From Roseovarius sp. Pro17 (GTDB lineage: Bacteria > Pseudomonadota > Alphaproteobacteria > Rhodobacterales > Rhodobacteraceae): a DNA stretch of 64,000 nt. Below, piece after piece: positions 40,073 through 56,339 of this stretch; the stretch's first letter is position 1, and every line of letters starts with the position of its first letter. Where the stretch lies: NCBI RefSeq assembly GCF_035599575.1, contig NZ_CP141179.1, forward strand, positions 1,240,001 through 1,304,000. The letters run 5' to 3'. The notes beneath the pieces were generated by a model. That model was not told the DNA's origin, did no database searches, and saw only the letters and a list, made by a program, of their open reading frames with translations. A program made the translations under genes and the position numbers.

Positions 40073-40141
40073 ACTGCTGTCCCGGCCCGGCGTCCAATGC
40101 GCCGGGCCGGCTATCCTGACCCAAGAAGGCCGCGCACCCGC

Positions 40142-40885
40142 ATGGATCTGGCGACAACCCTTATCGACTGGCTGCGGCCCGACTGGTTTCTGAATCTTGT
40201 CGTGGTCAGCGACGACTACAACCGGGGCCGCTATCTGGCGGGTCTCTGGATGACGGTAAAGCTGTCGGTGCTGTCGATCTTCTTTTCGCTGATCGTCGGG
40301 GTCGTCGGTGCCGCCGTCCAGGGCGCACCGTCGCGCACCCTGCGCGTGCTGGTCGGCGCCTTCGTCGCGTTTTTCCGCAATACGCCACCGCTGGTGCAGC
40401 TATATTTCTTTTATTTCGCCATCGGCACCGTGCTGCGTATTACTGGCGAAAATGGCCTGCCGCAGCCCTTGGTCAGCAATTTCGGCTGGGCGATCATTTC
40501 CCTTTCGCTGTTTGCCGGCGCGCTGAATGTCGAGATCTTTCGCGCCGGGGTTGAGGCTGTGCCGCGCGCGACGGTCGAGGCGGCTGAGGCGCTGGGATAT
40601 ACCCGCCTGCAGATCTACCGCGATATCGTGATGCCACTGGCGGTTCGCATTTCGTTGCCCGCGCTGGGTACGAACCTGGTGAATCTCGTGAAAACCACCA
40701 CGCTGGCCTATGCGATTGCGGTGCCCGAGTTACTCTATATCTCGGCGCAGATCTGGTCCGAGGATCTGAACGTGCGCGAGATGATGAACGTGCTGCTTGT
40801 GTCCTATGTGGGCCTTGTGGCGATCCTCGTCTGGGTGCTGCATCGCTGGGAAAAGGCGCTGCGCATACCGGGATACGGAGAATGA
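40142..40885 (+). CDS. Amino acid ABC transporter permease 1 (HisM/HisQ family)
   Basis: The 247-residue membrane protein has about five to six spans and the EAA loop that contacts the ATPase (EAAEALGYTRLQIYRDIVMP). I use the ATG at 40142 (MDLATTLIDW); an in-frame start at 40097 adds a basic stretch unlike the family. It overlaps the next permease gene in ATGA. Confidence 0.9.
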   Translation: MDLATTLIDWLRPDWFLNLVVVSDDYNRGRYLAGLWMTVKLSVLSIFFSLIVGVVGAAVQGAPSRTLRVLVGAFVAFFRNTPPLVQLYFFYFAIGTVLRITGENGLPQPLVSNFGWAIISLSLFAGALNVEIFRAGVEAVPRATVEAAEALGYTRLQIYRDIVMPLAVRISLPALGTNLVNLVKTTTLAYAIAVPELLYISAQIWSEDLNVREMMNVLLVSYVGLVAILVWVLHRWEKALRIPGYGE

Positions 40886-41748
40886 CGATGCGCCCCGATA
40901 CCCCCGTGCGCGGGCATATGCCGGTCCTGCTGCCCATGCGCATCCGCGCCGACGCGCTGCCGCTGGCCGACCGGATGTTCAACCTGTGGACCTTTTCAGC
41001 CCTGATGCTGGTCTTTGCCGCCGTGCTGATTGCGCCCGCCTTTGCACAGGACGCAGTGCCGGAAAGGCGCGGTGTCATCGCGATATTGCTGGAATGGACG
41101 CCGACACTGGGCAAGGGTTTTGGCTTTAACGTGCTGATTTCCATCCTGTCGATGGCGATCGGCACAGTTCTGGGGGTCATGCTGGGCGTGCTGCAGGTAT
41201 CGCCCATCCGCCCCGTGCGCAGTGTTGCGTGGCTGGTCACACAGTTCTTTCGCAACTCCCCGTGGCTGGTGCTGCTATTCTACTGCATCCTGCTCATTCC
41301 TTTTCAAATCAAGGTCTTCGGCACCGAAATTCCTTTTCCCGGCTGGATCAAGGCGGTGCTGGGCCTGTCGCTGCCGGTCATGGCCTATATGTCCGAATAC
41401 ATGCGCGGTGCGATCCTTTCGATCCCGACAGGGCAATGGGAATCGGCGGAATCGCTGGGCTTTAGCCGCCGCCAGATCATGACGGACGTGATCCTGCCCC
41501 AGACGGTCAAGCGCGTGCTGCCCTCATGGATGAACCTTTACGCCGTGCTGACCATGGCAACGCCGCTGGTGTCGATCATTGGCGTCAACGACGTGATGGC
41601 GCTGACGCGCGCCGCGCTCAGCGCCGAGGGACGCGTAGATCTGCTGATCCCGATGTATCTTTATATCCTCAGCTGGTTCTTCCTCTACTGCTACCCGATC
41701 AGCGCCGCGACGCGGCTGCTGGAGCGCAAATACTCGGTGAAACTATGA
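40882..41748 (+). CDS. Amino acid ABC transporter permease 2 (HisM/HisQ family)
   Basis: The 288-residue membrane protein has an N-terminal extension of about 70 residues, including one extra span with a possible signal-like cleavage (APAFAQD). The usual five-span core follows, with the EAA loop (ESAESLGFSRRQIMTDVILP). It pairs with permease 1 to form the channel and overlaps the ATPase gene in ATGA. Confidence 0.9.
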   Translation: MTMRPDTPVRGHMPVLLPMRIRADALPLADRMFNLWTFSALMLVFAAVLIAPAFAQDAVPERRGVIAILLEWTPTLGKGFGFNVLISILSMAIGTVLGVMLGVLQVSPIRPVRSVAWLVTQFFRNSPWLVLLFYCILLIPFQIKVFGTEIPFPGWIKAVLGLSLPVMAYMSEYMRGAILSIPTGQWESAESLGFSRRQIMTDVILPQTVKRVLPSWMNLYAVLTMATPLVSIIGVNDVMALTRAALSAEGRVDLLIPMYLYILSWFFLYCYPISAATRLLERKYSVKL

Positions 41749-42506
41749 ACGAGGCCGCGATGACCTGGACCCCCGATCAGCCGATCGTCTCGATGCGCGA
41801 CGTGCATAAATCCTTTGGCACGGTCGAGGTGCTGCGCGGCATCACCTTGGACGTGATGAAGGGCGAGGTGATCTGCATCATCGGTCCCTCCGGGTCGGGG
41901 AAATCGACCCTGATCCGCTGCATCAATGCGCTGAACGACATCCAATCCGGCTCGATCACCGTCGAAGGGCTGGAGGTGAACGACCCCAAGCTGGACAAGC
42001 TGTCGCTGCGCAAGAAGGTCGGAATGGTGTTTCAGCAATACAACCTTTTTCCGCACAAGACGGCGCTGCAGAACGTGATGATGGCCCCTATCAAGGTGCT
42101 GCGCCAAAACCGCGCGGAGGTAGAGAAACGCGCCCGCGCTCTCATCGCCAAAGTGCGGCTGGAAGGTAAGGAAGACGCCTATCCCGGCGAATTGTCCGGC
42201 GGTCAGCAACAGCGCGTCGCCATCGCGCGATCCCTCGCCATGAACCCCGATGTGATGCTGTTTGACGAGGTGACGGCTGCGCTGGATCCCGAAACGGTCA
42301 AGGAAGTGCTGACGACGATCAAGGATCTGGCCGCCGACGGCATGACCTGCATCCTCGTCACGCACGAAATGGGCTTCGCACGTGAGATCGCCGATTGCGT
42401 CTATTTCACCGATCGCGGTGTAATCGTGGAATCCGGCCCGCCCGCAACGTTCTTTGACAACGCGCAGGACCCGCGCACGCAGCAATTCCTGAGCCAAATA
42501 TTATAG
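41745..42506 (+). CDS. Amino acid ABC transporter ATPase (GlnQ/HisP family)
   Basis: The 253-residue product carries Walker A (GPSGSGKST), the Q-loop region (VFQQYNLFPHKT), the signature LSGGQQQRVAIARSLA, Walker B (VMLFDEVTAALD) and the switch histidine (LVTHEMGFA). The start at 41745 overlaps the permease stop in ATGA; a longer frame from 41526 is antisense-like shadow within the permease. It energises the 39.3-42.5 kb transporter. Confidence 0.95.
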   Translation: MNEAAMTWTPDQPIVSMRDVHKSFGTVEVLRGITLDVMKGEVICIIGPSGSGKSTLIRCINALNDIQSGSITVEGLEVNDPKLDKLSLRKKVGMVFQQYNLFPHKTALQNVMMAPIKVLRQNRAEVEKRARALIAKVRLEGKEDAYPGELSGGQQQRVAIARSLAMNPDVMLFDEVTAALDPETVKEVLTTIKDLAADGMTCILVTHEMGFAREIADCVYFTDRGVIVESGPPATFFDNAQDPRTQQFLSQIL

Positions 42507-42700: not shown

Positions 42701-44173
42701 CTAGGGTGCCTCTGCAAAAAGTATTCTTTCGTTCTTGGCGTGCCGCGCGGCAAGTTGCTTCATGAACTTGCCCATTTCCGGAATGAGGCGCGCAGGTGTG
42801 GCAACGTAGCCTGGCACTGCAATCTCAGGAAAGAGCGCGACGATCTCTCTGCGGCTTTCGGCTGAGACGCATTTTAGGGCTTCGGGACCGGTAAATAAGC
42901 TCTCTGTGGCCGCACCATTGGAATAGACAATTTCGTGACCGTCAAACAGCATGTGCCAATAGCCGACCTCTGTGGCGTCCGTCATCTGCTCAATGCCGTC
43001 CATACCGCACAGCTTGATGGCCGGGATCAGCACCTCTTTGGTGCCAAACATGCGCAGTGCAATTACCGAGCGTATCAGCACACGGTGCTGCGGGCTGACC
43101 ATCAAAGCCTTCTCAGGCATGTTGGGACCCAAGGCCCCGGCCGCGATACGCACGGGGCGCAGCTTGGGGTTCATCTGTAGATCGATACTGTCCAGCGTGT
43201 TGCGGCCAAGCCAACGGATCGGGCAGTATCCATTATCCATGGTAAGCACCATGTCGCCAATGCTCAGATCCTCAATCGCCACGAGGCCGCGCTTGGTCGT
43301 GATCCGCGTGCCCGTGCAAAAGCATACAACCTGAATATCCTCAAAGCGTCGCTCGTTGATAACAGTAGGATCAGTCTCGGTTCTGAGCGTATCGGAACCT
43401 GCTCCGCCATTAAACCGGTTGGCATTCGCATTTGCGCCTACACGCGCAAAGTCGTCGCCGGACCCCATTTGAATTCTATTTCCGGTGAAATCATCGCCGA
43501 CCGTCAGGCTGTCTGGATCTGCACCCATATTGATGTTGTTGACATCCGCGCCATCGCCAATGGTGATCGTGTCGGCGCCACCGGCGGTCGCGATGTCATT
43601 AACCGTAACATTGTCCCCGAGCGTGATTTCGTCATCGCCGGCGCGGGTTTCGATATCACCGACGGTCGATCCGTCGCCGATCGACACCGTATCGTCACCA
43701 GTGCCAGTGTTTAAGTCTGCGAGCGTTGCCCCGGACCCGATTGAGATGACATCGTCACCGCCTCCGGTATTGAGGTTAGCGTTGAGAACAAAGTTATCTC
43801 CGGCGGTAATCGTGTCTGCGCCGTTTGAACCATCAAATCTATCAAGCGTTACACCATTACCCGCTGTCAAACTGGAGGACTCGGCGCTTCCGGCATCAAG
43901 TCTGATGCTATCCAAATTTACATTATCGGCAATCTCGATCGATGGATTGAGAGAATTTCCGAACGTCAAATCGAGATTGTTCGCATTTGTCTGGCCAAAC
44001 TGAACCACAAAATTGGTTGAGCTTCCGCTGGCAGACGAAAAGTTGACGTCATCATCCGCGCTTGGATCAACGATGAAAATGTCGCCGTCGTTTACTTGAA
44101 TGGTTCCGCCCGCGGGAATTTCGTTGAGCCCGGATGGGGTCTGCCCGCTTCCAATGATGGTAAATGTCGGCAT
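42701..44173 (-). CDS. Hint-domain protein with seven 20-residue repeats
   Basis: The 490-residue product has no signal peptide. Residues about 117-256 form seven consecutive repeats of exactly 20 residues with a GxGDDxxxIGDGxxVxxIxT pattern, likely a beta-solenoid that may bind calcium like RTX repeats. A Hint (hedgehog/intein) domain of the Hint_2 type follows, starting at C284 (CFCTGTRITTKRG) and including SPQHRVLIRS. Such proteins in roseobacters are commonly type I secretion substrates, but no secretion genes are nearby. The Hint domain may self-cleave. It is monocistronic and convergent with the ABC operon. Confidence 0.8.
   Translation of the reverse strand: MPTFTIIGSGQTPSGLNEIPAGGTIQVNDGDIFIVDPSADDDVNFSSASGSSTNFVVQFGQTNANNLDLTFGNSLNPSIEIADNVNLDSIRLDAGSAESSSLTAGNGVTLDRFDGSNGADTITAGDNFVLNANLNTGGGDDVISIGSGATLADLNTGTGDDTVSIGDGSTVGDIETRAGDDEITLGDNVTVNDIATAGGADTITIGDGADVNNINMGADPDSLTVGDDFTGNRIQMGSGDDFARVGANANANRFNGGAGSDTLRTETDPTVINERRFEDIQVVCFCTGTRITTKRGLVAIEDLSIGDMVLTMDNGYCPIRWLGRNTLDSIDLQMNPKLRPVRIAAGALGPNMPEKALMVSPQHRVLIRSVIALRMFGTKEVLIPAIKLCGMDGIEQMTDATEVGYWHMLFDGHEIVYSNGAATESLFTGPEALKCVSAESRREIVALFPEIAVPGYVATPARLIPEMGKFMKQLAARHAKNERILFAEAP
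43406..43825 (-). repeat. Seven 60-base coding repeats in the Hint-domain gene
   Basis: Seven in-frame 60-base units encode the 20-residue solenoid repeats. They are clear at protein level (GGGDD, GTGDD, RAGDD, AGGAD, GADPD and GSGDD at unit starts) and diverged in DNA. Confidence 0.75.
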
Positions 44174-44796: not shown

Positions 44797-46443
44797 TCAA
44801 TCCGGTAACTTGACCGGCCCCCATTCAGCATAGGCGTCACAGGGTGATGGGTTTTCAGGATGAAACCCGCCGCCCAGATGCCGAATAATTCCCGCAACTG
44901 CGTTGAGGGAGGTTTGGACCGCCCCTTCGACCCACGCAGGCGTCCAACTGACACCATCACCCGCCATGAAAATCCCGCGTTCTTGGGGCGGTAGGGTATC
45001 TTGCATGAAGTGGCCGAACATCCGGTGGTTATAGCGATAATGCCCCGGTAGCGCGCCTTTGAACGCGCCCAAAAAGTTGGGGTCATTTTCCCAACTGACG
45101 GTGATCGGATCGCCCAGAATATGCGACCGGATATCCACATCAGGATAGATATTCGCCAGCGAGGACAACGCCAGTTCCACACGCTTTTCCACCGGCAGGG
45201 GCAGCACCTTGAGCGCGTCGGTCATCCATGAATAGCTAAGGCAGATGACCGAGGGCTTGTCGGGTCCGTTATCGAACAAATAGGTGCCGCGCGTCATGCG
45301 ATCGGTCAGCGTCATCGACATGACATCGCGGCCAGTTTTCGGGTCCTTGTCCTTCCAGAACGGGCGATTGACCATCACGAATGTCTTGGCGGATTGCATA
45401 TAGCGGGTCCGGTCCAGTGCCATCCACAGCTCATGGGCAAAGAGGGTCTCTTCGGTGTCGATCACGGTCGACAGCAGGTGGCTTTGACACGTGACAAGCA
45501 CGGCATCAAAATTCTCGACCCGCTTCCATTGGTCGGTGATTTCGAATTTCTCGCCCTGCCGCCTGATCCGGGTCGCCCCGGCGCGAGTGGCCCCGCCGTT
45601 CAGTTTGGATAGCGTGGTGCCGCTGGGCCAATGGGCGATGGTATCGGGGGCATGTTCCCACAATTTGTGCGGGACTTGGCCAACGCCGCCCACCATGTAG
45701 CGTTGATGGTCGTCACATTCGGTCACGTTGACCCGCAGGATTTCCAGCATGGAATTGGGGAAATCGGAGTCCCAGCCGCCAGTGCCAAACCCAACCTGAC
45801 CAAAGACTTCGCGGTGATGAAAGGACAGCGCCTGAAATGCATCGGATGAGGCGACGAAATCATAAAAGGTCCGTTCGTCCCATTGTTCGACGATAGGGTT
45901 CCATATTTCCTTGATCTTAGCGTTATCGCGATCACGGATCGCCTGTTTCAGCGCGGTGAAATTTGCGCCGTCCTCCAACGCTTTGGCATAGGCTTGGGCG
46001 ACTTCGTGAAACAGCGGCGGCAGGTCGGCCAGCGTTTCGGCATAGTGGGTCTTGCCCAGCAGATCGACAACGGTCGAGCCTGCGGCCGGGGTCAGCGGAT
46101 TGGGGAAAGGTTTGCTCTGGATACCCAACATATCGACATAGGTGTAAAAACCGGTCGAGGAGACGGGAAAGCGCATACCGCCCAATTCCGCGATGACACC
46201 ATCGGCCCCCTCAAAGGGTTGCGAGCGCAGGCGCCCGCCGAACTGACCAGCCTCGAACACGACCGGCTTGGCGCCTAGTTTCATCAGCTCATACCCTGCG
46301 ATGATCCCCGCCGCCCCCGAGCCGATGATCGCCACCTTGGCGCCATGGGCGGTGTCTGGCAGGTGGCCAAGCCCCTTGGGGTGGGTGATCCAATCATCAT
46401 AGGCAAAGGGGAAATCTGGCCCGAAGACAGAGACTTTATTCAT
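44797..46443 (-). CDS. davB: L-lysine 2-monooxygenase (DavB family flavoprotein)
   Basis: DavB oxidatively decarboxylates L-lysine with O2 to 5-aminovaleramide. The 548-residue amine-oxidase-fold protein begins VSVFGPDFPFAYDDWITHP and has the FAD motif VAIIGSGAAGIIAGYELM, then ELGGMRFPVSST and a C-terminal flavin region with GIFMAGDGVSWTPAWVEGA. These match Pseudomonas DavB closely as I know it. The related tryptophan 2-monooxygenase (IaaM) is the main alternative; the coupled davA supports lysine. The start overlaps the davA stop by eight bases. Confidence 0.85.
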   Translation of the reverse strand: MNKVSVFGPDFPFAYDDWITHPKGLGHLPDTAHGAKVAIIGSGAAGIIAGYELMKLGAKPVVFEAGQFGGRLRSQPFEGADGVIAELGGMRFPVSSTGFYTYVDMLGIQSKPFPNPLTPAAGSTVVDLLGKTHYAETLADLPPLFHEVAQAYAKALEDGANFTALKQAIRDRDNAKIKEIWNPIVEQWDERTFYDFVASSDAFQALSFHHREVFGQVGFGTGGWDSDFPNSMLEILRVNVTECDDHQRYMVGGVGQVPHKLWEHAPDTIAHWPSGTTLSKLNGGATRAGATRIRRQGEKFEITDQWKRVENFDAVLVTCQSHLLSTVIDTEETLFAHELWMALDRTRYMQSAKTFVMVNRPFWKDKDPKTGRDVMSMTLTDRMTRGTYLFDNGPDKPSVICLSYSWMTDALKVLPLPVEKRVELALSSLANIYPDVDIRSHILGDPITVSWENDPNFLGAFKGALPGHYRYNHRMFGHFMQDTLPPQERGIFMAGDGVSWTPAWVEGAVQTSLNAVAGIIRHLGGGFHPENPSPCDAYAEWGPVKLPD

Positions 46444-47245
46444 CAGAGGGACCTTTGGAATTGAGGCGTCCGTACAAATCTGGACGGCGGTCAGCGAGGT
46501 GGTTTTGCAGCTTGCGACAAGCCGCCAGTTCGGTGTGGCTTAGGTCTGCAAACAGTAGATCAGGGGCTTCTTGGGGTGCGCGGGCAAGGTCGTTGCCGTT
46601 AGGGCGGCAGATACAGGACAGGCCGCCATAGGTAAATTCCCCTTCTGTGCCGGTGTAATTGGCGTAGGCAACGTAAACTGCGTTTTCCTCGGCGCGGGAC
46701 GGGACCAGCCGGGTGGCGACGCTGTCAAAGGGTATCATATTTGCGGTTGGCACAAGGATCAGATCGGCCCCTTGCAAGGCCAAGGCGCGGGCGACTTCGG
46801 GGAATTCGATATCATAACAAATAGCAAGGCCGACGGACCAGCCGTTCAGTTCAAACACTCCAGACAGCGCTGCACCTGCGGCGAATTGGGTTCTATCGAC
46901 ACCCCCGTAGAGATGGGTTTTGTGATAGCGATGTCGTTCGTTCCCAGCGGCGTCCAACACGATCACGCCATTGTAAGGCGCGTCCGGACCAGGCAAGGCA
47001 AGGCCGACAACCAGCGCAATTTCATATTTTCGGGCGATGGATTTAAGCGCGTCAATCAGGGAATCTGCCGAAGCCGCCAGTGTTTGGCACCTGTCTGCCC
47101 CGACATTGTAGCCACCCAACGCCATCTCCGGCGTCAGGATCAGGTCAGCGCCCTCGGCCCGAGCAAGCTGCGCCGCTTGATCCAGCGCTACCAAGGCCTG
47201 CTGTGCGTCATGTAGCGGCACGGTTTGCCAGAGTGCAATCTTCAC
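46436..47245 (-). CDS. davA: 5-aminovaleramide amidohydrolase (nitrilase superfamily)
   Basis: DavA hydrolyses 5-aminovaleramide to 5-aminovalerate and ammonia. The 269-residue product has the nitrilase triad E40 (LTPEMALGGYN), K109 (YHKTHLYGG) and C143 (AICYDIEFPE). I choose the GTG at 47245 because AAAAGGA precedes it at good spacing; in-frame ATGs further upstream (to 47284) are possible. It lies 156 bases after lysR on the same strand and is coupled to davB. davT/davD-type genes for the next steps to glutarate are not in the window. Confidence 0.85.
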   Translation of the reverse strand: MKIALWQTVPLHDAQQALVALDQAAQLARAEGADLILTPEMALGGYNVGADRCQTLAASADSLIDALKSIARKYEIALVVGLALPGPDAPYNGVIVLDAAGNERHRYHKTHLYGGVDRTQFAAGAALSGVFELNGWSVGLAICYDIEFPEVARALALQGADLILVPTANMIPFDSVATRLVPSRAEENAVYVAYANYTGTEGEFTYGGLSCICRPNGNDLARAPQEAPDLLFADLSHTELAACRKLQNHLADRRPDLYGRLNSKGPSDE

Positions 47246-47401
47246 CGATACGTCCTTTTCGAGCATCATGCGCGAGATCGACATGGGTTTGCAACGACCG
47301 CCAAGCCCGCCCAGAAAAACGCTGGGACTTCTATTGACCCGCGAGCTGCGTCGGCAGAGGCCCCCAGATAGGTCCCCGGTGTTCGCGATAAATGTCCAAC
47401 C

Positions 47402-48310
47402 TTATTGCATAACGAACGTTGCAAATCTGTCCTCCACGAGGTCCAGAAATCGGCTGGCCACGCGCGAGGGCTGACGCAAGGCGGGTAGCAGCAAATCATA
47501 GCGAAACAGCTGCTCTGGCACGAGCGGGCGCGCGACGACGCGTCCGGCACTCGCGAAATACGTAGCGGTGACAGGCTCGACGATAGAGACACCTGCGCCG
47601 GCTGCGACCAACTCGCAGATTGACGCGGACAGTTGAGCTTCGGCGACGATCCGGGGGCGGGCACCGCCCGCCGACAGGAACAGGTCAGTTTCGGATCGCG
47701 TGCCGATCTCGGCCCCGAGGGCGATGAAAGGTTGCTGATCAAAATCCGCAGGTTCCAAGACGTCCTGACGCTCCAAGTGATGGCTGATCGGCAGGACCGC
47801 CAGCATGGGGGCCGTAAAGATCGGTCTGCGGATGACAGCCGGATGATCATTGTCCAGCGCAGCAAACCCAAGATCGAACTGCTGTGAACTGAGATGCTGC
47901 AAAACTGCCTGTGAACTGCGGGTGCGCAGCGACACGGTGATACCGGGCTCGTGGGCGATGAATTCGGCAATGACCTCCGGCAACAGTTTTAGCGCCAGCG
48001 CCGGCATCCCCGCGACCAGCAGGCTACCTTTGCGAAAGTCGCGGATATCCGTGATGACGCGGGAAATCTCGGACATGCCGACGAAGGCGCGTTCGACCTC
48101 CTCATAGAGGGCCAGCGCCTCGGGTGTCGGCACGACCTGACGTCCGCGCCGCTCAAACAGGTCGAACCCGGCAACACGCTCCAGATCGGCGATCAACTTG
48201 CTGATTGAGGGTTGCGTGGTGCCCAGCACACCGGCTGCCGAAGTGATCTTGCCTGTTTCGATCACAGCGCGGAAGGCTTCGATCTGGCGATGTGTGAGAC
48301 GGGGGAGCAT
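47402..48310 (-). CDS. LysR-family regulator, probably of the lysine/opine-type island
   Basis: The 302-residue product has an N-terminal winged helix (LTHRQIEAFRAVIETGKITS, TTQPSISKLIADLE) and a C-terminal substrate-binding-type effector domain. It resembles the OccR/NocR type that controls opine genes, though that closeness is a judgement by eye. It is divergent from the dehydrogenase/transporter operon with 91 bases between, and upstream of davA on its own strand, so it is placed to control both. The ATG at 48310 is chosen; the frame extends upstream to 48352. Confidence 0.88.
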   Translation of the reverse strand: MLPRLTHRQIEAFRAVIETGKITSAAGVLGTTQPSISKLIADLERVAGFDLFERRGRQVVPTPEALALYEEVERAFVGMSEISRVITDIRDFRKGSLLVAGMPALALKLLPEVIAEFIAHEPGITVSLRTRSSQAVLQHLSSQQFDLGFAALDNDHPAVIRRPIFTAPMLAVLPISHHLERQDVLEPADFDQQPFIALGAEIGTRSETDLFLSAGGARPRIVAEAQLSASICELVAAGAGVSIVEPVTATYFASAGRVVARPLVPEQLFRYDLLLPALRQPSRVASRFLDLVEDRFATFVMQ

Positions 48311-48328
48311 GGCTAATACATATCCAAA

Positions 48329-48362
48329 ATGAATGATTTGAACAAATATCACGATTATTCAT
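48329..48362. promoter_or_regulatory. Putative LysR operator region
   Basis: The A-T rich space between lysR and the divergent operon holds an inverted repeat, ATGAAT at 48329-48334 and ATTCAT at 48357-48362, with a smaller TTTGAACAAA inside. This fits the T-N11-A style sites of LysR proteins. Confidence 0.45.
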
Positions 48363-48401
48363 ATAAAAAGAAAGCTGCGACTTTACCTTGGGAGGAATCG
48401 C

Positions 48402-49526
48402 ATGAACCGTACTGACCCAGAAATCACCATTGTCGGCGGCGGCGTTGTCGGGCTGTCCGTGGCGCTGGGGCTGCTCCTGGCCGGTCGCAGGGTTCATGTG
48501 CTGGATGGCGCCGACAGTGATGCACGGGCGTCGCAGGGCAACTTTGGCCTTGTCTGGGGGCAGGGCAAGGGATGGAATTTTGCGCCTTATGCCAGATGGA
48601 CCAGCGAGGCATTGGCTGCATGGCCGGATTTTGCGCGCCGGCTGGCGGATTTATCCGGCATCGATGTCGCGCTGGATCAGACCGGCGGTTTCGAGTTCTT
48701 CACTGATGCTGGCGAGATGGATGAATTTGCAGGAATGCTGGCACAGCAGCAGCGGCATCTGGGCAATCAATTTAGCCATGAGATGCTCAGTGGCGATGAT
48801 CTGCGAGCGCAGATTCCGGGCATCGGACCGGACGTCGTCGGGGCCAGCTTCTCCCGGCATGACGGGCATGTGAACCCACTGCGCTTCCTGCGCGCGTTGC
48901 GGAGTGCCGTAGTAGCCGCCGGTGGGCGCGTAGAAATGAGTGCGCCAGTGGCAAAAATCGCACCGGTTACCGGAGACGGATTTGACGTCTTGATGGCGAG
49001 CGGGCAGAAACGCAGTGCGCAAAAGGTCATCCTTTGCGCCGGACTGGGCGCAGCGACACTGGCCGCCCAACTGGGCTTTGCCACGCAGATACGGCCCCAA
49101 CGCGGCGAACTGCTGATTACCGAAAAACTGGGCGACCGCCTGCCGTTCCTGTCCAGCACGATCCGGCAGGTGGATGAGGGCGGTGTGCAGATCGGGGGAA
49201 CCAAGGCCGATGCAGGTCTGGACGATAGAGAAACGCTGGACGTGATGACCGGGCTTGCGCGCCACGCGGTGACCGTATTTCCTGCATTGGCAGACGTGCG
49301 CGTCGTGCGGGCCTGGAGCGCGCTGCGCGTCATGTCGCCAGACGGGTATCCGGTCTACGCGCGCTCCGCGCACCATCCCGGTGCCTATCTCATCACGTGT
49401 CATAGCGGTGTCACGCTTGCCCCGTTGCACGCCACCGTCCTTGCGGACTGGATAGAAAGCACATCTGCAGCACCTGATCTGGAGGCCTTCGATGAAAACC
49501 GTTTCACGATTTCTAACGCCGCCTGA
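48402..49526 (+). CDS. FAD-dependent amino acid/opine dehydrogenase, DAO-type subunit
   Basis: The 374-residue DadA/DAO-fold flavoprotein is the catalytic subunit type of three-part dehydrogenases (HcnC, OoxB/NoxB, D-hydroxyproline dehydrogenase beta). It has the FAD-binding ITIVGGGVVGLSVALGLL and the family stretch SQGNFGLVWGQGKG. It should oxidise the C-N bond of a D-amino acid, secondary amine or opine. It overlaps the small iron-sulphur gene by 35 bases and is first in a seven-gene operon divergent from lysR. Confidence 0.85.
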   Translation: MNRTDPEITIVGGGVVGLSVALGLLLAGRRVHVLDGADSDARASQGNFGLVWGQGKGWNFAPYARWTSEALAAWPDFARRLADLSGIDVALDQTGGFEFFTDAGEMDEFAGMLAQQQRHLGNQFSHEMLSGDDLRAQIPGIGPDVVGASFSRHDGHVNPLRFLRALRSAVVAAGGRVEMSAPVAKIAPVTGDGFDVLMASGQKRSAQKVILCAGLGAATLAAQLGFATQIRPQRGELLITEKLGDRLPFLSSTIRQVDEGGVQIGGTKADAGLDDRETLDVMTGLARHAVTVFPALADVRVVRAWSALRVMSPDGYPVYARSAHHPGAYLITCHSGVTLAPLHATVLADWIESTSAAPDLEAFDENRFTISNAA

Positions 49527-49809
49527 GACCGGCACAGTCGTAGAGTTTCAATACGAGGGCGAGACTGTGACGAGCCCTGCGGGAGTATCGCTTGCCGCAG
49601 CCCTTCTGGCCCATTCCGGCGCGTACACGAGGCAGACAGCCAAAGGGGACGCACGCACAGCGTTTTGCATGATGGGCGTCTGTTTTGAGTGTTTGGTCGA
49701 GGTCGATGGCAATCCCAATACACAGGCCTGCATGTGTCCAGTACGCGACGGGATGATCGTCAGCCGCCAGATGGGATTGCGCCGACTGACGGGATGCAAC
49801 GATGTCTGA
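49492..49809 (+). CDS. Small [2Fe-2S] subunit of the dehydrogenase complex (HcnA-like)
   Basis: The 105-residue ferredoxin-like protein has cysteines C59, C64, C67 and C80 (FCMMGVCFECLVEVDG, then ACMCPV) spaced C-x4-C-x2-C-x12-C, plus C82. This is the pattern of the small subunits of hydrogen cyanide synthase and D-hydroxyproline dehydrogenase. It passes electrons between the flavin subunits. It overlaps both neighbours (35 bases upstream, 8 downstream). Confidence 0.88.
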   Translation: MKTVSRFLTPPETGTVVEFQYEGETVTSPAGVSLAAALLAHSGAYTRQTAKGDARTAFCMMGVCFECLVEVDGNPNTQACMCPVRDGMIVSRQMGLRRLTGCNDV

Positions 49810-51193
49810 ATTCGATCTTATCATCATCGGCGCCGGTCCTGCCGGCATGTCGGCTGCCCGGACGGCGGCCGATGGTGGGCTGCGCGCATTGCTGCTGGAC
49901 GAACAGGCTCAGCCCGGCGGGCAGATCTACCGCAATGTCGGCCAGAACCGGTCAGCGCGTGGCTGGCTGGGCGCGGAGTATGCATCCGGCGCGCGGCTGG
50001 TTGATGCGCTGGATCATCCGCTCGTCACGGTGGAATCCGGCGCGACCGTCTGGCGGCTGGAGGCTGGGCCGCGCGTCGTCTGGTCGCGAGGTGGCACCAG
50101 CCATATCGCGGCAGCGCCGCATGTTGTGCTGGCGGGTGGCGCGCAGGAGCGGCCCGTGCCATTCCCCGGCTGGACACTGCCCGGTGTGATGACAGCGGGG
50201 GCGGCGCAGATACTGATGAAGACAGCCGGGATGTTGCCACGCGACGCCGTGTTGGCGGGGTCGGGGCCGCTTCTGTATCTGGTCGCGGCGCAGATGATAG
50301 ACGCCGGATGCCCACCAAAGGCGTTGGTCGAGACCCAGACAACCCGCATGATGCTAGGTGCCTTGCGATATCTGCCGAAGGCAGCGTTTGCAGCGGGAAT
50401 GTTTTTGAAGGGGCTTGGCCTCATCCGGAAAATAAGCGCGGCCGGTGTTCGGCGATACACAACTGCCTCTGATTTCAACGCGACGTCCGACGCCAGCGGC
50501 ATGATCCATTTCTCTTTTCACTCGAAAGGCAAGCGCGAGAGTCTGACCTGCGCCCTTCTGCTGACGCATCAGGGTGTGATCCCGTCAACGCATCTAAGCC
50601 GTGCCGCGGGCATCACGCATGAATGGAACGCGGCACAGGTTGCCTTTCAGCCGGCCCACGATTTTTGGGGGGCCACCGATCAGCCGGGCCTGCACGTTGC
50701 CGGTGACGGGGCGGGCATCGGCGGCGCTGAGGTTGCCACCGCGTCCGGGGAATTGACGGCCCTGAATATTTTACACGCCAGCGGGCACAACAGTGCCGAT
50801 GTACGCAACCAACGCGCAGCGGCTGCCGGCGCGACGCTGTTTCGCGCCCGCGCCATTCGCCCCTTTCTGGACGCCGCCTATCCGCCCCCGATTGAGGTCC
50901 TGTCGCCTCCCGACGATACCATCATCTGCCGCTGCGAGGAGGTCAGCGCTGGCGCAGTCCGGCAAGGCATGAGCGAGGGCGCACAAGGTCACCGTCAGAT
51001 CAAAACATCGTTGCGCGTTGGCATGGGCGCGTGCCAAGGTCGCATGTGCGACGCCACAGTGCGTGGAATTTTGAGTGCAGGAAAAACATCACGTATGGGT
51101 CAGATCGTCCCGCCAAGGGCACGTTCGCCCATCAAGCCGATCAGCTTGGGCGAGTTGGCAACACTGACCAGCGATCAGGAGGAAACGGTATGA
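49802..51193 (+). CDS. FAD/NAD(P)-type subunit with BFD-like [2Fe-2S] domain (OoxA/HcnB-like)
   Basis: The 463-residue product has a Rossmann FAD site (LIIIGAGPAGMSAARTAADG, then QPGGQIYR) and a second dinucleotide motif (VLAGSGPLLYLVAAQM). A C-terminal bacterioferritin-associated-ferredoxin-like domain has cysteines in IICRCEEVSAGA and GACQGRMCDA. This layout defines the alpha subunit of octopine/nopaline oxidase, HcnB and D-hydroxyproline dehydrogenase. Its stop overlaps the ATPase start in ATGA. Confidence 0.88.
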   Translation: MSEFDLIIIGAGPAGMSAARTAADGGLRALLLDEQAQPGGQIYRNVGQNRSARGWLGAEYASGARLVDALDHPLVTVESGATVWRLEAGPRVVWSRGGTSHIAAAPHVVLAGGAQERPVPFPGWTLPGVMTAGAAQILMKTAGMLPRDAVLAGSGPLLYLVAAQMIDAGCPPKALVETQTTRMMLGALRYLPKAAFAAGMFLKGLGLIRKISAAGVRRYTTASDFNATSDASGMIHFSFHSKGKRESLTCALLLTHQGVIPSTHLSRAAGITHEWNAAQVAFQPAHDFWGATDQPGLHVAGDGAGIGGAEVATASGELTALNILHASGHNSADVRNQRAAAAGATLFRARAIRPFLDAAYPPPIEVLSPPDDTIICRCEEVSAGAVRQGMSEGAQGHRQIKTSLRVGMGACQGRMCDATVRGILSAGKTSRMGQIVPPRARSPIKPISLGELATLTSDQEETV

Positions 51194-51960
51194 GCGATCC
51201 CGCAGCGTTGAAGATCGAAGACCTGCACAAGAGTTTCGGTAGTCACGAGGTCATCAAGGGCGTCTCAATGGAAGCGCAGAAAGGCGAAGTCATTGCCATC
51301 CTTGGCGCCTCCGGCTCTGGCAAAAGCACGTTCCTGCGCTGCATCAACCTGCTGGAGATACCGAATTCCGGCGACGTCTGGCTGGCGGGGGAAAAGATGC
51401 GCATGAAGCGTAACCGCCACGGCGATACGGTGCCCGAGGATATTCGACAGGTCGAGCGGATGCGCGCGCGCCTTGCCATGGTGTTTCAAGGCTTTAACTT
51501 GTGGTCGCACATGACTGTGCTGGAAAACGTGATGGAAGGGCCGCTTTACGTGCAAAAGACGCCCAAGGCGGAAGCGCGCGAGAAGGCCAAGGCCCTGCTG
51601 GCCAAGGTCGGGCTGTCTGATCGCGCCGATTATTACCCAGCGCATTTGTCCGGCGGTCAGCAGCAGCGTGTCGCCATTGCGCGGGCACTGGCGATGGATC
51701 CTGATGTGATGTTATTTGACGAGCCGACCTCGGCCCTTGATCCCGAACTGGTGGGCGAGGTGCTGGGCGTCATGCGCGATCTGGCCGACGAGGGGCGCAC
51801 GATGCTGGTCGTCACGCATGAAATGAGCTTTGCCCGCGATGTATCGACCAAGACCGTCTTTCTTCACAAAGGCGAGGTCTGCGAAGAAGGCCCGCCGTCG
51901 GAGATATTCTCAAACCCTCAAACCACCGAATTTCAGGCGTTTTTGTCGCGCATGAATTGA
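51190..51960 (+). CDS. Basic amino acid/opine ABC transporter ATPase (HisP/OccP family)
   Basis: The 256-residue product has Walker A (GASGSGKST), the Q-loop (VFQGFNLWSHMT), the signature LSGGQQQRVAIARALA, Walker B (VMLFDEPTSALD) and the switch histidine (VVTHEMSFA). The inserted RHGDTVPEDIRQVERMRARL and the WSHMT motif are typical of the histidine/lysine/octopine subgroup. The start at 51190 overlaps the upstream stop; the longer frame from 51031 is a shadow. Confidence 0.93.
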   Translation: MSDPAALKIEDLHKSFGSHEVIKGVSMEAQKGEVIAILGASGSGKSTFLRCINLLEIPNSGDVWLAGEKMRMKRNRHGDTVPEDIRQVERMRARLAMVFQGFNLWSHMTVLENVMEGPLYVQKTPKAEAREKAKALLAKVGLSDRADYYPAHLSGGQQQRVAIARALAMDPDVMLFDEPTSALDPELVGEVLGVMRDLADEGRTMLVVTHEMSFARDVSTKTVFLHKGEVCEEGPPSEIFSNPQTTEFQAFLSRMN

Positions 51961-51988
51961 CCATCCAACCCTAGAAAAGGACCCAACC

Positions 51989-52777
51989 ATGATCCGTAGA
52001 ACTATTCTGACCACTGTCGCTGCCGCCGCGCTGGCCGCGATTGCCATCCCCGCCACTGCGCAGGACGTGCTGCGCATCGCAGTCGAGGGCGCATACCCTC
52101 CGTTTTCGTCCACGTCATCCGACGGCACACTTGTCGGTTTCGACATTGAAATCGCAGAGGCGCTTTGCGCCGAAATGCAGCGTGAATGCGAACTGATCCA
52201 GCAGGAATGGGACGGCATGATCCCCGCGCTCAAGGCGCAAAAGTTTGATGCCATCGTCGCGTCCATGTCGATCACCGAAGAGCGCAAGCGCCAGATCGAT
52301 TTCTCGGACAAATACTATCAGACGCCCGCCCGCGTGGTCGCCCCGGAGGATGCCGATTTTGACGACACGCCCGAAGGGCTGGCCGGCAAGCGGATCGGCG
52401 TGCAGCGCGGTGCGACGCACCAGTGCTACGCTGAAAAGATGTTCCCCGATGCGGAAATCGTTCTTTACGGCTCGCAGGACGAAGTGTTCCGTGACCTCGC
52501 GCTGGGCCGTGTGGATGCACAACTGTCAGACAGCCTGATCGCGAAGGAGGGCTTTCTCGATACGGATGCAGGGGCGGGCTACGCGTTCCTTGGTGGCGAT
52601 CACGTTGATATCGAATGCTACGGTGAAGGCGTCGGCATCGCCGTGCGCCAAGGCGAGGAAGAGTTGCGCGATGCGTTTAGCGCGGCGATCCTCGCCATCC
52701 GCGAAAACGGCACCTACGCAGAGATCAACGACAAGTATTTCGATTTCGACATCTATGGCGGACGTCCTGCTTCCTAA
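51989..52777 (+). CDS. Lysine/arginine/ornithine-type substrate-binding protein
   Basis: The 262-residue periplasmic protein has a signal peptide (about residues 1-24, ending PATAQD). The mature part follows the LAO/HisJ pattern (AVEGAYPPFSS, GFDIEIAEALCAEMQ, WDGMIPALKAQKFDAIVASMSITEERKRQIDFS, LGRVDAQLSD). The arginine after MSITEE and the aspartate of GRVDA match residues that hold the alpha-carboxylate and alpha-amino groups in LAO. The side-chain-contact positions differ (E for D11, W for F52 in LAO numbering). A lysine-like or opine-like ligand fits. Confidence 0.88.
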   Translation: MIRRTILTTVAAAALAAIAIPATAQDVLRIAVEGAYPPFSSTSSDGTLVGFDIEIAEALCAEMQRECELIQQEWDGMIPALKAQKFDAIVASMSITEERKRQIDFSDKYYQTPARVVAPEDADFDDTPEGLAGKRIGVQRGATHQCYAEKMFPDAEIVLYGSQDEVFRDLALGRVDAQLSDSLIAKEGFLDTDAGAGYAFLGGDHVDIECYGEGVGIAVRQGEEELRDAFSAAILAIRENGTYAEINDKYFDFDIYGGRPAS

Positions 52778-52800
52778 TGATCGGACCTGCACCAAAAAAA

Positions 52801-52829
52801 GGTCAGGGCGGCACTTCGTCGCCCTGACC
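52801..52829 (+). terminator. Intercistronic hairpin between binding-protein and permease genes
   Basis: A perfect 10-bp stem (GGTCAGGGCG with CGCCCTGACC) with a nine-base loop lies in the 71-base gap after the binding-protein gene, preceded by an A-run. There is no T-run, so it more likely protects the upstream mRNA and partly stops transcription, giving more binding protein than permease. Confidence 0.7.
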
Positions 52830-52848
52830 CACAACCGGGGGACGCCTG

Positions 52849-53541
52849 ATGGACCTGATACTGGAATACCAATCCCAGTTGATTGACGGAACGCTTATGA
52901 CGATTAAGCTGGCGCTGACGTCGCTTGTCTTTGCGCTGCTGTTTGGGCTGTTGGGTGCTTGGGCGAAGCTGTCCTCCAACCGTTTGGCGCGGCGTCTGGC
53001 CGGGCTGTACACGACCATCGTGCGCGGTGTGCCCGACCTCGTGCTGATCCTGCTGGTTTTTTACGGCGGTCAGGTGACGCTGAACAATATCGGCGTGATC
53101 ACTGGGCTTTGGGGTTATGTCGAAGTCAGCCAATTCGCGGCAGGCGCCGGAACGATTGGCGTGATCTTTGGCGCCTATTTCACCGAAACGTTCCGGGGCG
53201 CGATCATGGCTATCCCGCGCGGCCAGATCGAGGCGGGGATCAGCTGTGGCATGTCCAGATCGCTGATATTCCGCCACATCATCTGGCCCCAGATGGTGCG
53301 CTATGCGTTGCCGGGTTTCACCAACAACTGGCTGGTGCAACTCAAGACGACGGCACTCGTTTCGGTCATCGGCCTTCAGGATCTGGTCTATAACGCGTTC
53401 ACCGCAGGCCGCTCCACGGGCATGCTGTTTACCTTCATGGCGGCGGCGTTTGTCATCTATCTGATGCTGACGGCCGTCTCGGATGTTTTGCTGCGCGCGC
53501 TTGAACGACACTACAGCCGCGGCGTGGTGAGGGCGGGATGA
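52849..53541 (+). CDS. Basic amino acid/opine ABC transporter permease (HisQ/OccQ family)
   Basis: The 230-residue membrane protein has about five spans, IVRGVPDLVLILLVFYGG and the EAA loop (EAGISCGMSRSLIFRHIIWP). It pairs with the permease that follows, whose ATG overlaps its stop. Confidence 0.92.
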   Translation: MDLILEYQSQLIDGTLMTIKLALTSLVFALLFGLLGAWAKLSSNRLARRLAGLYTTIVRGVPDLVLILLVFYGGQVTLNNIGVITGLWGYVEVSQFAAGAGTIGVIFGAYFTETFRGAIMAIPRGQIEAGISCGMSRSLIFRHIIWPQMVRYALPGFTNNWLVQLKTTALVSVIGLQDLVYNAFTAGRSTGMLFTFMAAAFVIYLMLTAVSDVLLRALERHYSRGVVRAG

Positions 53542-54299
53542 TGGAAAACATACTGTCCTATATCCCTCTCGACATTGCGCTGATCGCCGATAATTTCGAC
53601 CGTTTCTTATATGGCGTGTGGACTACGCTGAACCTTACGTTTCTGGCGCTGCTGCTGGGCACCCTGCTGGCCATTCCCATGGCGATCGCGCGTGCGTCCG
53701 GGCACGCTGTATTTAATCCGCTGGTACAGGCTTACACTTATGTTTTTCGCGGCACGCCGCTGCTGGTCCAGACCTATCTGATCTACTACGGCGTCGGACA
53801 GTTCGACGTCATCCGCAACAGCTTTCTCTGGGATCCGATCCTATCGTCGGCATGGTGGTGTGCGCTGATTGCGTTCACCCTAAACACAGCAGCCTATACG
53901 ACCGAATTGCTGCGCGGTGCCATCGCCGACACGCCAACCGGCGAGGTCGAAGCCGCAATCGCCACAGGCCATTCCTACCGCAGCCGCATGCGTCGGATCA
54001 TTCTGCCCTCGGCCTTCCGCCGAGCGATCCCGGCCTATTCAAACGAAGTCATCTTCATGCTGCACGGGTCCGTCATAGCCAGCACAATCACGCTTCAGGA
54101 TATCCTTGGCGTCGGGCGCTGGCTGAACGGTCGCTACTACCTCGCTTATGAGGGGTTCATCACTGCGGCCGTGCTCTACTTCCTGATCGTTCTCTGCATA
54201 GCATGGGCCTTTCGCTGGTTCGAACGCCGCTATCTGCGCCATTTAGTCCGCCGTAGCGAGGGCGTGGAGCCGACTATCACTCCGACCCCCGTCACCTGA
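53538..54299 (+). CDS. Basic amino acid/opine ABC transporter permease (HisM/OccM family)
   Basis: The 253-residue membrane protein shows VFRGTPLLVQTYLIYYGVGQ and the EAA loop (EVEAAIATGHSYRSRMRRIILP). It ends the seven-gene operon. The gene order dehydrogenase, ATPase, binding protein, permease, permease groups uptake with oxidation. Confidence 0.92.
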   Translation: MMENILSYIPLDIALIADNFDRFLYGVWTTLNLTFLALLLGTLLAIPMAIARASGHAVFNPLVQAYTYVFRGTPLLVQTYLIYYGVGQFDVIRNSFLWDPILSSAWWCALIAFTLNTAAYTTELLRGAIADTPTGEVEAAIATGHSYRSRMRRIILPSAFRRAIPAYSNEVIFMLHGSVIASTITLQDILGVGRWLNGRYYLAYEGFITAAVLYFLIVLCIAWAFRWFERRYLRHLVRRSEGVEPTITPTPVT

Positions 54300-54323
54300 G
54301 AGGGTATTCGCATAGTCCGAACG

Positions 54324-54783
54324 TTATGCATATCGACTTAAGGATGCGGTAAGCTCGTCAGGTGTGGCGGTACCATCTATCTCGGCTGCCAAGTTGGAAG
54401 CGGAGCCGATGTGACAGAGCAGACATGTGCACATTGCGGTTAATTGACTCGCTAGTATCGCGGATTTCGGCAAGTTGAATGGTGCGTGGGTGCCTGAGGG
54501 CAATGCGCCGAAACAGATGATGGCGATGTCGGCAAACACATCATTGAGCGTTCCGTTGACCCAGCCACCCGGCCGATATGCCGCCAGCGCCTGGTCCAAA
54601 ACGTGACCATGTAGGGCGCGTTCAGAACGCCAATGCGTTTGTCATAGGAGGTCGAAGGCCAGCGGAGCATCAGATCCACCTCGCCGGCGACAAGTTGATC
54701 GAACACCTCAAGTTGGCCGCCAAGCTGATTTTTGGCAAAACAGCCGCGCGTCGATTTCCCGGTCCGAGCCTTCGCTGATCAAC
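54324..54783 (-). pseudogene. Decayed TRAP transporter substrate-binding protein (DctP family)
   Basis: Three frames on the - strand read in order like the middle of a DctP protein. LISEGSDREIDARLF is followed after a one-base shift by AKNQLGGQLEVFDQLVAGEV and STSYDKRIGVLNAPYMVTFW. After another shift comes the C-terminal signature YRPGGWVNGTLNDVFADI. No full frame exists and the N-terminal half is gone. The DctQ/DctM membrane genes are absent. It lies convergent to the ABC operon. Confidence 0.7.
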
Positions 54784-55070
54784 ACCGCCCATCCCTAGAT
54801 CGCATCGCCTGACGACGATCCCTCGTAACCGACCGGCATGAGTGATCAAAACCCGCCGTTCCAGGTCGACCTCTGTAGAAAAGGCGGCTATACGGCGGTG
54901 ATCCTTCCGATTTGATGATTGGCGCTCTCATCTTTGGCATGGCCTTGGTAGAACAGGCGGGCAAAAGCGCCCCTCCCATTCACCTGAGTATCAATGATGC
55001 ATTCATCGAATGCGTTATCCGCACAGCGCAAATTCGTTGAAAATCTGAACGTGCGCGATGCAGCCTTGGC
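54784..55070. other. Stretch without a gene beside the DctP remnant
   Basis: Short frames only. Some of it may be the unrecognisable 5' part of the decayed DctP gene. Confidence 0.35.
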
Positions 55071-55808
55071 TCAGATCGAAATCTGCACCACCGTGTAAAC
55101 CGCAACCGCCGCCACGAACGCCGGAAACGAAGACGGGTGTTCACGTGAAAACTCTTCTTCCAGCACGACCAACACAATTCCACCTGCGAGAAACGACAGC
55201 AGAAGAGTGACCACCACCGGCGAGATTACCGTTGTGGCACCGACGATCCAGCCGACAAGGATGGCGATGGTCAGTGCCCATCTTCCGATGCGCTGATAGA
55301 CGCCCTTGTGGATGTCCATCATCCGATAGTCGACGACCAGAAAATGAACAGCCATCGAAATCGCGAAAATGACGATCGAAACCGGATTGTTCATTTGCAC
55401 GATAAGATAGCCGATGATGGCCTTGTAAAATGCGTAGGATGCAAGGTGGATCCAGACCCTCAGCCCGGTGGCTTCGTGCGCAATGTGAGAGCCACTTGCA
55501 TCAACCGGTTTTTCCACCATACGTTCCATGCCATAGAACGCGACGAGGCCGATCAGTAACGGCAGGAACGGGCTGTGCTTGAGGATTTCCGCAGCGTAGC
55601 CCAGCGAGTCTGGAAATGCAGCCGTCCCTTCAACGATCTTTGGCAGAAGTCCAAGAAAGACATAGCTGATGGAAATGCCATCAGCGAAGGACAGCCAGTA
55701 CTTCTGCGGCAATTGGCGCTTCCAGCGCAACATATCCGCAAGCACGTGGACAAGGCTAAGAAACAACACCGATGCCAGCGACAATCCGATCAGAGTGGTG
55801 CCATTCAT
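55071..55808 (-). CDS. Multi-spanning membrane protein, unknown function
   Basis: The 245-residue product has about seven to eight hydrophobic spans. A conserved-looking polar element in a span (SFADGISISYVFLGLLPKI) recalls the metal-binding helices of ZIP transporters, and the middle holds a charged loop (ERMVEKPVDASGSHIAHEA). I cannot assign it firmly; a ZIP-like transporter is one possibility. It starts 22 bases after the end of the decayed fghA frames on the same strand. Confidence 0.7.
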   Translation of the reverse strand: MNGTTLIGLSLASVLFLSLVHVLADMLRWKRQLPQKYWLSFADGISISYVFLGLLPKIVEGTAAFPDSLGYAAEILKHSPFLPLLIGLVAFYGMERMVEKPVDASGSHIAHEATGLRVWIHLASYAFYKAIIGYLIVQMNNPVSIVIFAISMAVHFLVVDYRMMDIHKGVYQRIGRWALTIAILVGWIVGATTVISPVVVTLLLSFLAGGIVLVVLEEEFSREHPSSFPAFVAAVAVYTVVQISI

Positions 55809-55830
55809 TTCGATAGTCCTTTCGACCGTT

Positions 55831-56279
55831 CTACAAAAAACTCGTCGGCGTCACCGTGATCCACGACCGCCAAACGGACCTTTCGATCTGCTGAGGACGC
55901 ACGTTCAGAACGTAATCGCGCATGTGGAAATGGCACTTACACCGTGATTGTGTGGCGTTGGCGTAAAATCCAGCGCTTTGCCCATGGTCATAGCTATCGA
56001 CATCCGCCACATCCGCGCCGCGCGGACTGGTGTCGGGGTTACAATCGCGACGCCATGCTCCAAGCCATGCGTTGGTGGCCGGCTTTCGGCATAAAATTCT
56101 CATCGGTGCAGGTCAGCCCGGACAGCCAATAGGATCACCGGCACTTCCTGTCCTTTCGCGATCTGCGGAGATAGGTAAATCGTGAACCGCATGTCGTAGT
56201 TCAGGTTGTTTGCATGGTCGCCATGGTCCTTGGTCCAGCCGCCAAGGCTCTTGTCAACGCCGGCGGTTTCCAGTGACAT
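55831..56279 (-). pseudogene. fghA: Decayed S-formylglutathione hydrolase gene
   Basis: From an ATG at 56279 the frames read SLETAGVDKSLGGWTKDHGD and MRFTIYLSPQIAKGQEVPVI. A shift leads to LSGLTCTDENFMPKAGHQRM, and another to DTSPRGADVADVDSYDHG, then SAGFYANATQ and HMRDYVLNV. These are the landmarks of the N-terminal half of S-formylglutathione hydrolase, in order. At least two frameshifts and loss of about the last 140 residues, including the catalytic serine region, make it non-functional. It directly follows adhC, the usual partner. Confidence 0.85.
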
Positions 56280-56339
56280 GCTGTATCTTTCGTCCAGATG
56301 ATGTGGCCGCGCCGCACGTGGCGCGACCCCTCGTTTCGC

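Follow-up and report, generated by a model that had tools for sequence, protein, structure and literature searches.

Most of what is known of opine catabolism comes from crown-gall agrobacteria. On the octopine Ti plasmid, the occ operon carries RidA and ocd (ornithine cyclodeaminase, OCD) after ooxA, and in the noc region of pTiC58 arginase and ocd lie beside noxBCA. Here, we describe a related chromosomal island in Roseovarius sp. Pro17, a member of the Rhodobacterales, an order with many marine members. The window analyzed is the whole stretch of 64,000 nucleotides from contig NZ_CP141179.1 (positions 1,240,001 to 1,304,000), and the island occupies positions 44797-54299 of it.

The island is best explained as an occ/noc-type opine operon with its amino-acid branch redirected to lysine, and with lysopine as the likeliest ligand, a reading to which we assign a probability of about 0.58. 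The narrower proposal of a dedicated lysine-opine pathway, in which the arginine end of an occ-like operon disappeared in one Roseovarius group and davBA was recruited there once, so that the cell imports and cleaves lysopine or something similar and consumes the lysine, is more tentative and falls somewhat short of even odds. We infer the substrate, the cleavage reaction and its electron acceptor, the regulation and the flux from the genes present, as follows. The importer, of HisPQM/LAO type, would import an N2-(carboxyalkyl) basic amino acid, with lysopine as first choice, and octopinic acid and octopine may use the same system. A substrate range spanning several members of the octopine family is plausible because OpnDH2 of Bradyrhizobium japonicum is inhibited by Lys, Orn and Arg (PMC4575208); lysopine as a possible OpnDH2 substrate is its authors' proposal from inhibition only (PMC4575208). 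The FAD/FMN/[2Fe-2S] BCA dehydrogenase (FAD, flavin adenine dinucleotide; FMN, flavin mononucleotide) would oxidize the secondary amine to an imine, whose hydrolysis would yield a 2-oxo acid and a free L-amino acid. DavB and DavA would convert L-lysine to 5-aminovaleramide and then to 5-aminovalerate, which two enzymes encoded elsewhere, a GabT-type transaminase and a GcdH-like one, would convert further towards glutaryl-CoA. The LysR regulator would sense the opine or a product at a shared divergent promoter.

The ten genes are intact open reading frames (ORFs), and their coordinates and families (Pfam and NCBIfam profile matches) agree with an initial annotation made from the sequence alone. 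As that annotation stated, davB, davA and lysR lie on the minus strand, divergent from a B-C-A dehydrogenase trio and a HisPQM-type importer with an LAO-class binding protein on the plus strand. The features, in window coordinates, are:

44797-46443, minus strand: davB, L-lysine 2-monooxygenase (L-amino acid oxidase/monooxygenase family), Pfam Amino_oxidase, 894 bits to 3we0
46436-47284, minus strand: davA, probable 5-aminovaleramidase, Pfam CN_hydrolase
47402-48352, minus strand: lysR, OccR/NocR-like LysR regulator, alternative start ATG at 48310 possible
48311-48401, no strand: lysR/dhB intergenic region, probable operator/promoter, with conserved blocks in a 12-locus alignment
48402-49526, plus strand: dhB, dehydrogenase beta subunit, catalytic, FAD, DAO family, R-A-W motif
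49492-49809, plus strand: dhG, dehydrogenase gamma subunit, [2Fe-2S], Fer2_4, C-x4-C-x2-C-x12-C
49802-51193, plus strand: dhA, dehydrogenase alpha subunit, FAD and BFD-like [2Fe-2S], Pyr_redox_2 and Fer2_BFD
51190-51960, plus strand: importer ATPase, OccP/NocP/HisP type, 62% to OccP and 60% to NocP
51989-52777, plus strand: periplasmic binding protein, LAO class
52849-53541, plus strand: permease 1, OccQ/HisQ type, 42-43% to OccQ/NocQ
53538-54299, plus strand: permease 2, OccM/HisM type, 39-41% to OccM/NocM
54351-54558, plus strand: RidA remnant, decayed, at the place of RidA in related operons (tblastn)

The ORF ends overlap by 35 bp (dhB/dhG), 8 bp (dhG/dhA), 4 bp (dhA/ATPase), 4 bp (the two permeases) and 8 bp (davA/davB), which is consistent with two operons; lysR and davA are separated by 117 bp. 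The spacing between lysR and dhB is 49 bp (91 bp with LysR starting at ATG 48310), and its conserved blocks are common to the 12 aligned loci.

Kinship with the Ti-plasmid systems was assessed by BLASTP. Each of the eight products of lysR, the trio and the importer genes has an occ/noc counterpart, with 31-62% identity. For occ and noc, respectively, identities are 40/39% (beta subunit), 44/38% (gamma), 42/41% (alpha), 62/60% (ATPase) and 31/33% (binding protein), with 39-43% for the permeases. LysR is 38% identical to OccR and 39% to a LysR of the noc region; its first match in the PDB is a Rubisco-operon regulator (66.6 bits), followed by the OccR effector domain 5vvh (65.7 bits).

Scanning named contigs yielded 38 loci, 12 of which have the trio together with close (at least 74%) importer genes (L005, L006, L007, L009, L010, L011, L012, L013, L016, L017, L021 and L038; L010 has the ATPase and binding protein only, up to the contig end). 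RidA, arginase and OCD stand at the operon end in Phaeovulum vinaykumarii (L009) and a metagenome-assembled genome of Rhodobacteraceae (L013), and the same three genes end the operon on two Paracoccus plasmids (L043 and L044). A Leisingera plasmid (L042) has RidA and rocF there, with OCD as two tblastn pieces, and a Pseudorhodobacter locus (L038) has RidA and arginase before the contig ends. With NCBIfam models, the L043 arginase scores 278.8 (cut-off 227.6) and its OCD 586.2 (cut-off 350); the L043 RidA matches Pfam Ribonuc_L-PSP, the OCD of relatives is 63-67% identical to Ti OCDs, and their arginase is 58% identical to the noc arginase. RidA without arginase is found at the operon end in L005, L011 (1.2 kb left), L017, L021, L101 and L108, and neither was seen there in L006/L106, L107 and L016. 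The window's own operon contains no arginase or OCD, only the RidA remnant. Because LysR, the trio and the importer all have occ/noc counterparts and several relatives encode arginase and OCD, the opine-like character suggested in the initial annotation is supported, the main evidence being the relatives with RidA, arginase and OCD and the window's RidA remnant.

These relatives also bear on whether the trio is a dehydrogenase of D-lysine, D-arginine or another D-amino acid. The beta subunit does belong to the DAO family, and RidA in relatives suits an imine product. However, the relatives' arginase and OCD (those of L043 exceeding their cut-offs) act on L-Arg and L-Orn, the gene tables of the related operons inspected contain no racemase, and oxidized D-lysine would yield no L-lysine, the substrate of DavB. 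We therefore consider this reading very unlikely, and D-lysine, which had been named as a possible substrate, is poorly supported, the island itself having no racemase.

Association between importer type and amino-acid pathway was assessed across 54 trio loci. A davB, arginase or OCD gene lies near the trio in 10 of the 20 loci with both permeases of this type, versus none of the 34 without (Fisher 8e-6); when restricted to loci in which dhB is flanked by more than 5.5 kb in each direction, the counts are 7/16 versus 0/23 (p 7e-4). This is an association and not a clean test, since the loci are related and partly chosen (two hand-chosen Ti plasmids and three top-match plasmids are included) and the permeases were judged by score only. 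One locus counted as a no, on the conjugative Klebsiella oxytoca plasmid pKO_JKo3_1 (L114), has a trio (43%), a lysine-arginine-ornithine binding protein, permeases, and genes for arginine succinyltransferase and ornithine transaminase; it is possibly another arginine-opine locus.

The trio is encoded by tandem overlapping B-C-A genes, as in flavin-containing opine dehydrogenases. Its cofactor motifs, as listed in PMC4575208, were examined by alignment with OoxBCA and NoxBCA. GxGxxG is present in the beta and alpha subunits, the gamma subunit has the C-x4-C-x2-C-x12-C motif, and the alpha subunit has BFD-like cysteines that align with those of OoxA and NoxA, with a spacing wider than the x15-20 of PMC4575208 in all three proteins. 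The R-x-W motif of the beta subunit reads R-A-W in the window, R-S-W in OoxB and R-Q-W in NoxB. The same BCA architecture is found in D-hydroxyproline dehydrogenase (PMC4575208), and proline-racemase-family genes are present in the genome, so that the trio could be such an enzyme with davBA as an accidental neighbor. We regard this as extremely improbable, because two of the proline-racemase-family genes, 1.1 Mb away, are accompanied by an FAD oxidoreductase and an importer of their own, whereas the trio is partnered with an LAO/occ-type importer and, in its kin, with arginase and OCD. The initial annotation's statement that hydroxyproline partners are missing holds near the island; elsewhere the genome has three proline-racemase-family genes, and two of these stand with an AcnX gene, the FAD oxidoreductase and an amino-acid importer in a separate hydroxyproline-type cluster (L189, 2.400-2.418 Mb).

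The beta-subunit tree comprises 48 rows, including 25 of the 38 named-contig loci, with P. putida and B. japonicum rows absent and several forks weak. Two Paracoccus copies branch first in the group, members with RidA only are spread over later branches, and the davBA members fall among the Roseovarius rows, together with L006 and L107, which lack davBA. A placement of the trio inside an OoxB/NoxB clade was dropped, as the tree gives it no support. A sister clade of trios (L023, L026, L033, L104, L105 and kin) has beta subunits about 50% identical, often with RidA; in those of its loci inspected gene by gene, a DctP-type binding protein of a tripartite ATP-independent periplasmic (TRAP) transporter and a LysR adjoin the trio, DctP being found by Pfam only in L104. 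Four further loci (L109, L111, L115 and L119) have another type of ATP-binding cassette (ABC) importer, B-C-A-B2 genes and RidA nearby, which is the layout of the B. japonicum octopine dehydrogenase four-gene set.

Pocket residues of the binding protein were compared, in LAO numbering, with those of OccJ, NocT and LAO in Table 3 of PMC5740067, which also reports octopine binding by the LAO variant Q122A and lysopine binding by OccJ at about 0.1 uM. Glu11, Trp52, Gln117, His122, Ser72 and Asp161 are present in all 16 of the close operon binding proteins aligned. Glu11, Trp52 and Gln117 match OccT and NocT, His122 matches NocT, and Ser72 matches OccT and LAO. Relative to LAO, the side-chain pocket is changed at Asp11 (to Glu), Phe52 (to Trp) and Leu117 (to Gln), and the residues that hold a free alpha-amino acid (Asp161, Thr121, Ser72 and Arg77) are kept. 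This comparison is equivocal; the pocket would permit an opine without proving one. Two trio loci, L008 (HTCC2255) and L014 (Water_Bin34), have a diverged amino-acid importer with a binding protein of about 30% identity and Gln122, possibly for a different ligand.

Retention of the LAO alpha-amino-acid residues alongside an altered side-chain pocket could also suit an N6-substituted lysine (carboxymethyl- or carboxyethyl-lysine), handled by the importer and trio with release of L-lysine that would suit DavBA. However, the same pocket changes occur in arginase-linked operons and in OccT/NocT, an N6-substituted lysine is a poor fit to the arginase/OCD kin, and a literature search on carboxymethyl-lysine catabolism found none pertinent by title among the papers listed. 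We therefore consider such a substrate distinctly unlikely.

The choice of lysine depends on davBA. DavB scores 894 bits against the solved L-amino acid oxidase/monooxygenase (3we0/5yb6) and keeps its substrate-site residues Trp235, Asp238 and Cys254 (read with the chain's 20-residue offset; sites from PMC5832979). For davA, no NCBIfam model exceeded its cut-off. Linkage was assessed in 84 genomes of the genus and in a family draw of 394 genomes, scoring the best few candidates per genome. Within the genus, davB is present in 9 genomes and dhB (E <= 1e-60) in 30, seven of them with at least 72% identity and the others with 53% or less, mostly of the sister clade. Both davB and a close dhB occur in four genomes (the window genome, G302, G326 and G260), always 1.90-1.96 kb apart and in the same arrangement, which suggests that the linkage is more than chance. 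Five genus genomes carry davB (about 70%) at another site, four of them with davA adjoining, and in the davB genome G329 the only dhB is a 42% match more than 120 kb away. Among the 12 named loci, davB lies beside lysR in two, L007 (Roseovarius dicentrarchi) and L012 (uncultured Roseovarius), which come from the same records as two of the four linked genus genomes; on that side of lysR, the contigs of L013 and L038 stop immediately and that of L016 after 1.8 kb. In the family draw, davB (E <= 1e-150) was found in 18 genomes and dhB (E <= 1e-120) in 6, and both only in the window genome. Conserved linkage of davAB with the trio, which had been put forward as a check on the initial annotation, was thus observed, although davBA, present in four of the seven close operons of the genus, is no constant component of them.

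The origin of the linked genes was examined with a midpoint-rooted tree of 18 davB genes; a nineteenth, L097, was omitted as near-identical to L096. The four linked davB genes form one clade (95/87), and its sister is the davB of G203, 91% identical (100/100 with G203). In G203, davBA lies beside a transaminase that exceeds the GABA-transaminase cut-off (548.8 vs 506.65), a CoA-transferase and an acyl-CoA dehydrogenase. The best model for the G203 CoA-transferase is succinate-glutarate CoA-transferase (509 bits, below the 750 cut-off), and the GcdH-like acyl-CoA dehydrogenase is taken for glutaryl-CoA dehydrogenase, a name that is unproven; the same type of acyl-CoA dehydrogenase is beside davAB in L186. 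Of the 15 unlinked davB loci, 11 have a davA homologue next to davB, in one case on the other strand. Because the linked davB clade is sister to davBA with glutarate-type neighbors, davBA is probably a lysine-to-glutarate module, and we conclude from the tree that such a module appears to have been recruited once into this locus. The role proposed for DavBA, to consume freed L-lysine, is likewise supported. Assignment of DavBA as arginine 2-monooxygenase and guanidinobutyramidase was considered and rejected, as the closest unlinked davBA adjoins GabT and a glutarate-type CoA-transferase. Linked DavA has diverged to 72-83% while the arrangement persisted, which argues for selection on the linkage, although four related species are few.

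The downstream end of the operon retains a trace of the RidA of related operons. In tblastn searches, RidA of L009, L017, L021 and L042 matches two in-order pieces, 54351-54425 and about 54448-54558 (E 2e-8 to 1e-7), which are in different frames and contain a stop; RidA of L043 and L005 matches the first piece only (E about 2e-5). No clear gene follows up to about 55060, and no arginase or OCD remnant was found by tblastn in 54250-56300 (best chance match, E 0.78). A decayed RidA after the last permease indicates that the window's line once had a RidA end and lost it. L006 and L107 have neither RidA nor davBA, so that the loss of RidA is independent of davBA.

Several observations weigh against the main reading. 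The window beta subunit does not group with OoxB or NoxB, although OoxB and NoxB are also apart from each other and NoxB is a long branch. The sister clade, with its TRAP transporters and RidA, indicates that other substrates exist close by. In the binding protein, Asp161 is kept, as in amino-acid-binding LAO, and His122 is also found in 9 of 28 aligned paralogues (28 of the 31 matches other than the window's own), including 5 of the 7 closest (44-51% identity), so that it was dropped as a decisive opine signature. The G203 acyl-CoA dehydrogenase is below every NCBIfam cut-off, the glutaryl-CoA model ranking third (219.6 vs 470). Three of the seven genus operons with a close dhB (G253, G303 and G272) have no davBA, and two of these three have lost RidA as well. 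Pocket residues are identical in arginase-linked and davBA-linked members, suggesting that the ligand may not have changed, and L-AAO/MOG, the characterized relative of DavB, also takes Orn and Arg (PMC5832979).

The last three of these points, namely operons of the same genus without davBA, the identical pockets and the substrate range of L-AAO/MOG, agree with a different reading, in which the island is an octopine-type Arg/Orn opine operon with its ligand unchanged, and DavBA is a separate free-lysine module that adjoins lysR by chance, or DavB acts on released Arg/Orn. The use of octopine dehydrogenase by cephalopods (PMC7669893) also speaks for this reading. However, the linked davB clade is sister to davBA with glutarate-type neighbors, davBA adjacency was kept although DavA diverged, and arginase and OCD are encoded elsewhere in the genome. 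Five arginase-family genes and one OCD were found there, and a cluster near 1.48 Mb combines an arginase (279.6 bits, over the cut-off), a DDAH-type gene and the OCD, so that Arg and Orn have another route with no need of davBA. For the onward route from 5-aminovalerate, the genome encodes a GabT over its cut-off and an 80% match to the G203 acyl-CoA dehydrogenase. An unchanged octopine-type ligand is thus unlikely in our judgment, although it deserves to be taken seriously.

Two features adjoin the island in the window. A second amino-acid-type ABC importer, with an SBP_bac_3 binding protein, two permeases and an ATPase, lies at 39263-42506, and a 490-aa minus-strand protein with a Hint domain (Hint_2) at 42701-44173, between this importer and davB.

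Operons of occ-like type, several with arginase and OCD, occur in Rhodobacterales, and marine invertebrates make opines: octopine, strombine and alanopine are documented (PMC7669893), and a 2024 scallop paper names lysopine dehydrogenase among molluscan opine dehydrogenases, in a single introductory mention and unmeasured there (PMC11084901). Uptake of mannopine-like compounds by free-living ocean microbes has been suggested from transporter annotation (PMC9426571), and the excerpts of marine 'opine' papers name only transporter families. Among the open-access papers listed in literature searches, no trio-importer-davBA operon or Rhodobacterales occ-like operon was found described, davB and opine never having been queried jointly. 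The davBA linkage provides a testable prediction of a lysine opine, and the related loci show one import-and-cleave module paired with different amino-acid pathways. If the prediction is true, lysine opines, with molluscs among their listed sources, would be a real bacterial nutrient in the sea.

Four known systems come closest to the island. The OdhBCA enzymes of Pseudomonas putida and B. japonicum (Watanabe 2015, PMC4575208) share the overlapping B-C-A genes, the FAD and [2Fe-2S] motifs, R-x-W and clusters with ABC transporters; they differ in that the substrates tested were nopaline and octopine, and no mention of davBA was found in the excerpts of that paper. The noc region of pTiC58 (noxB-C-A, nocPTQM, arginase, ocd) has counterparts of the trio and importer, and of the arginase and OCD of the window's relatives, whereas the window operon has neither arginase nor OCD and the beta subunits, 39% identical, are not monophyletic. 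With the occ operon of the octopine Ti plasmid (occR, occQMPT/J, ooxB-C-A, RidA, ocd), the island shares the divergent LysR, the HisPQM-type importer, the LAO-class binding protein and the B-C-A dehydrogenase, and several of its relatives share RidA and OCD as well. It differs in having the trio first and then the importer, in its chromosomal location, in its RidA remnant and lack of ocd, and in davBA beside lysR. Finally, the DavBA 5-aminovalerate pathway and L-AAO/MOG of Pseudomonas sp. AIU 813 are matched by DavB at 894 bits with the same substrate-site residues and by the adjacent davA, but here davBA is coupled to an operon of opine type and to the LysR of that operon.

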